Assembly (NCBI RefSeq): GCF_020099395.1
Contig: NZ_CP083590.1
Location: forward strand, 5,766,001 to 5,830,000
Source of the DNA: Streptomyces mobaraensis
Lineage (GTDB): Bacteria; Actinomycetota; Actinomycetes; Streptomycetales; Streptomycetaceae
Length of the DNA: 64,000 nt
Direction: 5' to 3'
Shown here: positions 23,904 through 25,558 of the stretch, piece after piece
Layout: each line of letters begins with the position of its first letter
How positions within the stretch are numbered: position 1 is the stretch's first letter
Translations under genes and position numbers: made by a program
Notes under the pieces: generated by a model
The model's input: the letters and a program-made list of their open reading frames with translations, nothing else
Databases searched by the model: none
Told to the model about the DNA's origin: nothing

Positions 23904-24485
23904 ATGCCACAAAGCACCTTGCCGGAAACGCTGCCCGAGACCCATCGCGTGATCCGCAGCCGGACCGTCCTGCGGAACTACGCGCCGGAGCCCATCGACG
24001 ACAAGCTCATCGACGCGATGCTGGAGTGCATGCTCGCCGCACCCACCGCCTCCAACAAGCAGGCGTGGTCGTTCGTCGTGGTGCGCGAGCCCCGCAACGT
24101 CCGCCTCCTGCGCGCCTTTTCGCCCGGGATCATCGGCACCCCGGCCTTCGTCGTCGTCGCCTGCGTCGACCGGCGCCTGACCGCCGGCTTCACCGGCGAG
24201 GTCTCCCGCAAGATCTACGAGATTTCCAAGCTCTGCGTGGCCATGGCCGTGGAGAACCTGCTGCTCTCCGCGCACGCCCTTGGCTTCGGAGGCTGCCCGG
24301 TGAGCAGCTTCCGCGAGGAGATCCTGCGCGACCTCCTCCACCTCCCGGAGGCGCTCGAACCCGTGCTGCTGGTGCCCGTCGGGCGCCCGGCGCACGAGCC
24401 CACGCCGTCCGACCGCCGCGACAAGAACGAGGTCATCAGCTATGAAGTCTGGGGGAACCGTGGCACCGCAGAACCGGTTGCATGA
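23904..24485 (+). CDS. albA: Cyclodipeptide oxidase large subunit, AlbA-like nitroreductase fold
   Basis: The 193-aa product has the nitroreductase FMN fold. Compared with remembered AlbA of albonoursin synthesis, it matches across long stretches: [75 protein letters not shown] and [12 protein letters not shown]. AlbA with AlbB forms the cyclodipeptide oxidase that introduces alpha,beta-dehydrogenation into diketopiperazines; the two subunits co-assemble into filaments in the studied case. The ATG at 23904 has AAGGGA upstream. It overlaps albB by 44 bases and belongs to one operon with a cyclodipeptide synthase. Confidence 0.92.
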
Positions 24486-24762
24486 GGACATCGCGCTGCT
24501 CGCCGCCTACCTGCTGAGCAGCGGCCGGGGGCTCCTCAACGAGCCCGCCGACTACGGCGCGTTCCGCTGCGCCGACGCCGCCCGCCGCACCCTGGAGATC
24601 CTGGAGAACGCCGGAGGCGGCACGCCCGGGCTCACGGAGGTGCGGCAGCGCCTGGACGACTACATGTTCGCGCCCATGGGCGGCGACACGGACATCGGCC
24701 GGGTGCTGGACGAACTCTGCTCGAAGATGGCCGAGACGCTGAAGGACGCCCCGGCGTCCTGA
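24442..24762 (+). CDS. albB: Cyclodipeptide oxidase small subunit, AlbB-like
   Basis: This is a 106-aa helical protein of the DUF6092 group. The N-terminal block [23 protein letters not shown], read here in parts [19 protein letters not shown] and LLNEPADYG, matches the AlbB subunit of cyclodipeptide oxidase. On its own it has no recognisable catalytic motif; it is thought to be required for AlbA activity and filament assembly. Its first 44 bases lie inside the albA end in another frame, which suggests coupled translation and fixed stoichiometry. The start ATG at 24442 is followed by a second possible start (GTG at 24460). Confidence 0.9.
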
Positions 24763-24823
24763 CGTTCCGGCCTCCCCCCATTCGAGGCGGAACCCCCGAA
24801 CCCCCCTCCGGAGGAGAACTGAC

Positions 24824-25558
24824 ATGTCGCCGCATGTGCTGACGGACGCTTCCCCGGTCGCTCCCGCGATCGAGATGCACGGGGAGCCGCTCGGCGAGAA
24901 CTGCCGGCGCATCCTGCCGCGCGGAGAGCACGCCCTCATCGGCGTGAGTGCCGGCAACAGCTATTTCAACCAGGACCGGCTCACGGGCCTGCTCGACTGG
25001 GCCGAGCGGTCCTTCGAGGACATCGATGTCGTGTACGTGGACACCGCGTTGGACGAGATGCTCCTCGCCGACGGCCGTACGCCCGAGAGCGCGGCCAAGT
25101 CCGTGAAGGCCACCGTCCGGGACGTCCGCCGGCGCATCAAGCGGGCCCGGGAACGGCTCGGCCCGCAGGGCGCCCGGATCCGCGTCCGCGCCTTATCCGA
25201 GATCATGGAACTCCCCGCCTACCAGGCGGTCCGCCGGGAGACCGACCGCGCCTTCCGGGAGGACCCGGAGTTCGCCGCCACCTGCCGGGCGCTGGTCCGG
25301 GACGTCGTCGAAGGCCGCTCCGGCACCGGCGCCGTCACCGAGGCGCACCTGCGGGCCGGCCTCGCCTACGTCCAGGCGGAGGCGCCCCTGTTCACCGACT
25401 GCCCGGCCATCTTCGGCGTCCCGACGTCCGTGGTGCTCTACCACATGAAGACGCCCATATCCGAGTACCTCGCGGGATCCCCCGAGGGCTTCCGCGCCGC
25501 TCCCGGGCAGGGCTACGCCATCGTCCGCCCCCGGGACTGGTCGCTCGCCGAGATCTGA
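24824..25558 (+). CDS. albC: tRNA-dependent cyclodipeptide synthase, AlbC-like
   Basis: CDPSs make cyclic dipeptides from two aminoacyl-tRNAs. The 244-aa product aligns well with remembered AlbC: GEHALIGVSAGNSYFNQ, DVVYVDTALDEMLLADGR, REDPEFAATCRALVRDVV, HLRAGLAYVQAEAPLF and GFRAAPGQGYAIVRP. The catalytic set is present: S42 (AlbC Ser37), Y182 and E186 (Tyr178, Glu182), and Y206 (Tyr202). N45, Y206 and H207 place it in the NYH subfamily. The amino-acid pair cannot be read with certainty; a Phe- or Leu-containing product is plausible by similarity. CGGAGGAG precedes the ATG. A long terminator follows. Confidence 0.95.
   Translation: MSPHVLTDASPVAPAIEMHGEPLGENCRRILPRGEHALIGVSAGNSYFNQDRLTGLLDWAERSFEDIDVVYVDTALDEMLLADGRTPESAAKSVKATVRDVRRRIKRARERLGPQGARIRVRALSEIMELPAYQAVRRETDRAFREDPEFAATCRALVRDVVEGRSGTGAVTEAHLRAGLAYVQAEAPLFTDCPAIFGVPTSVVLYHMKTPISEYLAGSPEGFRAAPGQGYAIVRPRDWSLAEI

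Follow-up and report, generated by a model that had tools for sequence, protein, structure and literature searches.

A probable albABC-type operon of Streptomyces mobaraensis predicted to make cyclo(Phe-X), and the recurrent TTA codon of its cyclodipeptide synthase gene

Two questions are raised by a compact three-gene locus of Streptomyces mobaraensis: does it encode a complete route to a dehydrogenated cyclic dipeptide of the albonoursin type, and, in a unit that appears to have neither a regulator nor a transporter of its own, what could determine when the product is made? We examined the locus within a window of 64,000 nucleotides (contig NZ_CP083590.1, positions 5,766,001 to 5,830,000), and all coordinates given here are those of the window. 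Our reading, to which we give a probability of nearly nine in ten, is that the trio is a complete albABC-type operon that would make cyclo(Phe-X), with a cyclodipeptide synthase (CDPS) that is probably gated by bldA through a TTA codon. The enzymes extend a known family; the pattern of the TTA codon is what is new, and it matters more than that extension.

The three genes, presumably co-transcribed, all lie on the forward strand, and each opens with ATG and closes with TGA. The first (23904..24485) encodes an AlbA-like cyclodipeptide oxidase subunit of 193 aa (CDOA; nitroreductase family, PF00881), the second (24442..24762) an AlbB-like subunit of 106 aa (CDOB; DUF6092, PF19585), and the third (24824..25558) an AlbC-like CDPS of 244 aa belonging to the NYH subfamily. 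CDOA and CDOB overlap by exactly 44 bases, and 61 bases separate CDOB from the CDPS gene. The top-scoring solved structures are albonoursin synthase/AlbB 8uc3 for CDOA (chain A, E 7.4e-79, 63.8% over 185 residues) and CDOB (chain D, E 4.1e-36, 61% over 100), and AlbC 3oqv for the CDPS (chain A, E 3.6e-77, 55.5% over 227), corresponding to identities of 64, 61 and 55.5% with AlbA, AlbB and AlbC of Streptomyces noursei. The CDPS scores 246.7 bits against PF16715 (cut-off 45) and 246.4 bits against TIGR04539 (cut-off 27), and both a protein search and a Pfam model search recover it as the single CDPS of the genome.

A preliminary description of this DNA, made from the letters alone, had proposed a co-directional AlbA-like/AlbB-like/CDPS trio with a 44-base overlap and a CDPS of the NYH subfamily with catalytic Ser42, Tyr182, Glu186 and Tyr206. 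Both proposals hold: all of the reading frames were recovered at 23904-25558 (+), and the four residues align with AlbC S37, Y178, E182 and Y202, with N45 and H207 completing the NYH motif. A misplaced catalytic Ser, Tyr or Glu had been named as the result that would count against the description, and the alignment places these residues where they are expected. Its albonoursin-type reading is likewise borne out, as each component agrees with its albonoursin counterpart in its sequence, in its catalytic residues and in its place in the gene order. The likeness to S. noursei albABC extends to gene order, the CDOA, CDOB and CDPS families, the catalytic residues and seven of eight residues of the first substrate pocket (P1), and in the S. 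noursei locus (L043) also to an albA/albB overlap (41 bases there) and a CDPS gene with a single TTA (at codon 5 there). The two systems differ in that their proteins are only 55-64% identical, four of seven residues of the second pocket (P2) depart from the AlbC of 3oqv, the TTA of the window lies at codon 124, and L043 contains none of the seven genes flanking the window trio that were looked for there.

The oxidase would be of the AlbAB type, a CDOA of PF00881 adjoining a CDOB of PF19585 in overlapping genes. The FMN-linking Cys115 of AlbA corresponds to Cys111 in the window CDOA, the FMN-phosphate residues Arg24, Arg28 and Arg175 to R20, R24 and R171, and the catalytic Ser54 to S50; in CDOB, the catalytic Tyr37 of AlbB is Y38, and AlbB E33, P34, R41, M78 and G79 are E34, P35, R42, M79 and G80. 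Also kept in CDOA are N51, C131, P132, V133 and S135, residues named for FMN binding and catalysis in PMC11055893. The one exception among the named FMN and catalytic residues is AlbA G138, which is Ser134 in the window; we do not take this as defining, because the FMN contact, made with N5 in the published structure as described in PMC11055893, runs through the backbone amide. A substrate-pocket residue is also changed, L104 of AlbA being Val100 here. In the passage of that paper that treats the FMN-linking cysteine, it is given among CDOAs only to those of CDPS clusters (PMC11055893).

Judging by the conservation of residues, the window oxidase may assemble into an enzyme filament. Chains of structure 9exv, which we take to be the cyclodipeptide oxidase of Nocardiopsis dassonvillei, match the window CDOA at E 7.2e-59 and CDOB at E 1.5e-24. 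The nocazine system of that organism (Ndas_1146/1147) is similar in combining a CDPS with a filamentous oxidase, as outlined in PMC11760959, and different in its CDPS (P0038), which is 45% identical to that of the window and has the pocket motifs LGLALLLC (P1) and HHVAAMP (P2).

What the CDPS would make depends on its two pockets, the positions of which we took from PMC5816076. The P1 motif, LGVVLLFV, matches that of AlbC (LGVVLLFL) at seven of eight positions, and in a set of 66 homologous proteins, the first being the window's own CDPS, 34 of the best 35 carry LGVVLLF followed by V, L or T, with P0014 as the exception. Those with names are mostly from Streptomyces, the closest being from S. 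huiliensis. The treatment of the pockets in PMC5816076 presumes that Phe occupies P1 in the group to which AlbC belongs, and with P1 only one residue away from AlbC, Phe in P1 is therefore expected and well supported. The P2 motif is another matter: LDVGMTP in the window, against MAVNITP in AlbC (3oqv), is identical at three of seven positions (Val156, Thr206 and Pro207 in AlbC numbering), so that neither cyclo(Phe-Leu) nor, in consequence, albonoursin itself can be taken for granted. The preliminary description had suggested pocket alignment as a means of naming the amino acids of a product whose identity it left open. This gives a predicted Phe for P1, which is AlbC-like, and no named partner, X, for P2, whose motif is unmatched among the homologues. 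We envisage that the CDPS would load Phe from Phe-tRNA in the first pocket and park it on Ser42, that another tRNA would supply a second aminoacyl residue to be joined to the Phe, and that cyclo(Phe-X) would be released, with a dehydro-cyclo(Phe-X) as the expected product of the unit. The trio would be a further source of dehydro-diketopiperazines, with a P2 motif that sets it apart from its homologues.

Could the CDPS instead have drifted in P2, with cyclo(Phe-Tyr), cyclo(Phe-Met) or a mixture as its main product and an oxidase output other than albonoursin? We regard this as a tentative alternative of somewhat less than even probability. In its favour, LDVGMTP is unique to the window protein and occurs in none of the 65 other homologues. 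In addition, cyclodipeptide oxidases are reported to accept many aromatic cyclodipeptides, as stated in the portions of PMC7044140 and PMC7487605 that concern substrate range, and a single alb-like cluster can be prolific: deletion of cdpA-C in Streptomyces hygrospinosus var. beijingensis abolished nine cyclodipeptides, albonoursin included, according to PMC9686873. That cluster, which we liken to the window trio by its description, differs in that some of its products derive from Arg and Pro (PMC9686873). Against drift, Val156, Thr206 and Pro207 are retained and the Gly at position 159 recurs in five AlbC-like proteins (P0021, P0023, P0024, P0030 and P0033). This glycine alone tells little about P2, because the eight motifs with Gly159 in the published table span five amino acids (Tyr 3, Leu 2, Trp 1, Pro 1, Arg 1), and the determinants of P2 are called unclear in the same treatment (PMC5816076).

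The second question, that of timing, turns on the single TTA codon of the CDPS gene (codon 124, 25193..25195, +), a feature on which the preliminary description is silent. It encodes a P1-pocket leucine, equivalent to AlbC Leu119, that is invariant in 24 of 24 aligned homologues. The genome also contains a tRNA-Leu(UAA) gene, and both elements of a bldA-type gate, the codon and its tRNA, are therefore present in the sequence; the late-acting bldA tRNA-Leu(UAA) would gate CDPS synthesis through this one TTA.

Is this codon peculiar to the window? Among AlbC-clade CDPS genes with full N-termini, a clade that we set at 50% identity or more, a cut chosen after the first tables, TTA is found in 12 of 14 distinct genes, the window included. 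The test rests on 14 genes because the five further loci L112-L115 and L124 proved to be parts of L036, L037, L039, L040 and L033. The position of the codon shifts from gene to gene: it lies at codon 124 in the window and at the same site (codon 120) in L032, at codon 54 in L033, 32 in L036, 25 in L041, 9 and 114 in L038, 7 in L048, 9 in L037 and 5 in L039, L040, L042 and L043, and it is absent from L034 and L035. The TTA codons of the clade thus fall in eight alignment columns, and seven of the 14 genes have one near the N-terminus (codons 5-9). N-terminal TTAs depend on gene starts, which a script chose by distance and ribosome-site score; for the S. noursei CDPS, the chosen start fits the way residues are numbered in 3oqv. 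Counting within matched stretches gives 7/14, which is too low because these stretches begin past the N-terminal TTAs. Outside the 14, the CDPS gene of L046 has a TTA at codon 5.

Controls place this recurrence in the CDPS gene of the AlbC clade. TTA occurs in only 2 of 28 albA/albB genes, 10 of 179 flanking genes at these loci (called mechanically) and 6 of 90 CDPS genes outside the clade, and gene-wise Fisher tests of the excess give p values of 1.3e-11 to 6.6e-7, on counts from related genes that are not independent. Per leucine codon, TTA accounts for 13/289 in the CDPS genes, 2/515 in albA/albB and 12/5586 in 177 flanking genes. The corresponding counts for CTA are 2/289, 5/515 and 17/5586, so that CTA is somewhat commoner in CDPS and albA/albB genes than in the flanks. 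Between CDPS and albA/albB, the difference is significant for TTA (p = 6.7e-5) and absent for CTA (p = 1). AT-rich drift was considered as the source of the excess and rejected, as CTA is not raised over albA/albB and GC3 stands at 0.875 for CDPS, 0.851 for albA/albB and 0.903 for the flanks. TTA presence is clearly enriched in the CDPS gene of the AlbC clade.

Enrichment is not yet function, and these codons might reflect chance or drift in a gene of secondary metabolism, with no regulatory role; we consider this unlikely, while taking it seriously. Across the genus, most TTA codons are poorly conserved, in the survey data of PMC10327506, which covered 213 species and identified 18 orthogroups with TTA in at least half of them. 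The 14 genes are related, moreover, and their N-terminal TTAs may descend from one inherited codon. Against chance stands the internal comparison, in which albA/albB of the same loci show no such excess. The excess also persists by alignment columns (8 in CDPS vs 2 in albA/albB, p = 0.006) and by lineages, as four of the six lineages lacking an N-terminal TTA have one elsewhere (codons 25, 32, 54 and 120/124), compared with 2 of 28 albA/albB genes (p = 0.004). The lineages were grouped by hand from the alignment, and the excess had caught our attention ahead of any test. A tree of 19 CDPS proteins requires three changes of the TTA label, a count that 9 of 500 shuffles match, and the label is thus clustered, as inheritance alone would also produce.

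We infer from these comparisons that the bldA gate on the CDPS gene may be under selection, and that TTA is likely maintained by replacement, a reading drawn from few events. It is tempting to speculate that the gate is kept by turnover, with selection holding the presence of a TTA and not its place, a proposal to which we give even odds. If this is true, the gate would sit in the unit's sole charged-tRNA-using enzyme and would control a cassette that has no regulator. The gate reading predicts that recoding a single CDPS codon should uncouple production from bldA, and the CDPS TTA would then be a cheap and direct handle on the timing of a cluster without its own regulator. More broadly, conservation of a rare codon within a gene may concern its presence and not its position, and such cases would escape a survey of conserved TTA sites. 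Albonoursin appears in a 2013 paper as one of several clusters that lack their own regulator, with the question whether these have a common mode of control; where it turns to this cluster, that paper notes TTA in the structural genes and putative AdpA sites in the intergenic regions (PMC3814723). Among the best-matching papers of the literature that we covered, which leaves out most subscription journals, we found no account of a recurrent TTA or of its shifting position in AlbC-type genes.

How widely is the unit distributed, and how much of its surroundings travels with it? In the stretches of DNA examined, 24 of the 80 named CDPS loci show an oxidase pair, and so do all 13 loci that, besides the window, reach 50% identity in the CDPS. 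The nearest relatives share the most: L032 of S. huiliensis has a CDPS 86% identical, the same gene order, TTA at the matching site and an adjoining AraC gene, and L033 of Streptomyces sp. I05A-00742 has a CDPS 82% identical, the same gene order, and NmrA-like and PPOX genes; the neighbours held in common suggest common descent. The P2 motifs of both, MDINTPP in L032 and MDINMTP in L033, differ from that of the window, as does the TTA position of L033. Among the 20 flanking genes scanned in 12 relatives, five of which had no Pfam family at 1e-8, the same families occur on both sides only in L034 and L035. Elsewhere the neighbours include a BTAD regulator (L036), a DEAD helicase (L040) and, as second gene downstream in L043, a Glu/Leu/Phe/Val dehydrogenase. 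With the trio kept while the scanned flanks mostly differ, it looks like a portable unit. L034 (S. caatingaensis) and L035 (Streptomyces sp. AV19), the two loci without a CDPS TTA, have an amino acid permease gene upstream and a GAPDH-like gene downstream.

A CDPS match was obtained in 143 of 392 genomes drawn from the genus Streptomyces, and a CDPS near to the query (E <=1e-55) in at least five of them, its own included, with seven candidates scored in each. Four further draws of genomes yielded no new AlbC-clade member among the seven or eight first-look candidates scored per genome, a depth at which clade members may have been missed. In viral contigs, 23 stretches matched the search pattern and none was confirmed. 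CDPS genes also occur on 22 PLSDB plasmid records (Streptomyces, Staphylococcus, Priestia, Embleya and Legionella), each with less than 60% identity.

The limits of the unit in the window are marked by hairpins. A terminator-like hairpin of 12 pairs (23591..23618, +) lies between the trio and an upstream HTH regulator gene with an MmyB-like ligand domain (22432-23343), and a strong one of 19 pairs (25593..25637, +) begins 35 bases past the CDPS stop; they are among five terminator-like sites on the two strands of 23300-25760, where shuffled sequence gives a mean of 1.1. Within the upstream region, the block TTCGGCCATTC (23760..23770, +) is kept in five of six upstream regions (the window and L032-L035, having diverged in L036), and a putative promoter identified by eye, TTGAGC and TACACA with an 18-base spacer (23834..23863, +), recurs across the relatives in its CTTGA and TACACA elements, which are kept with the ribosome site in six of six aligned regions. 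A sigma-70 consensus scan of 23300-25760 returned no promoter, and no Rfam family reached its gathering score in 20000-32000. Exact sites for the AdpA consensus, in the form in which we presume it, were absent from 23344-23903 and numbered 10 in the whole window against 7.85 expected. That the trio has decayed or fallen silent, as its want of a transporter or regulator might suggest, is hardly credible given open frames, intact catalytic residues wherever tested, a ribosome site and promoter-like block common to relatives, and 86-95% protein identity to S. huiliensis across the three genes.

The absence of an albD-like transporter directly downstream, remarked upon in the preliminary description, is confirmed: the 19-pair hairpin is followed by a reverse-strand gene for an FtrA-like AraC regulator and by one resembling quinone oxidoreductases. 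No transporter lies inside the unit; a gene for an ABC-2 type permease begins some 6.5 kb downstream of it. ARAGORN calls a tRNA-Lys(CTT) at 31112-31191 (-) that may be due to chance, lying inside a long forward frame that by eye runs into an ABC transporter ATPase. The membrane gene that follows albC in L043 (242 aa) has no match in the loci of 12 other relatives; the window holds a relative of it (7515-8039, -; 33.5% over 176 aa) 16 kb from the trio. As this is its only match outside L043, we do not regard the membrane gene as a fixed part of the unit. More generally, we rejected the idea that the unit includes a transporter or tailoring gene, since the families of the 20 flanking genes scanned in 12 relatives mostly differ.

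Two relatives show further arrangements. In L046 of Goodfellowiella coeruleoviolacea, whose CDPS is 48% identical to that of the window, the oxidase genes are found downstream of it and in the reverse orientation. In L038 of S. iconiensis, the trio is flanked by genes for an O-methyltransferase and a short-chain dehydrogenase (7610-8911 and 10707-11627 of that locus), which are possible tailoring genes.
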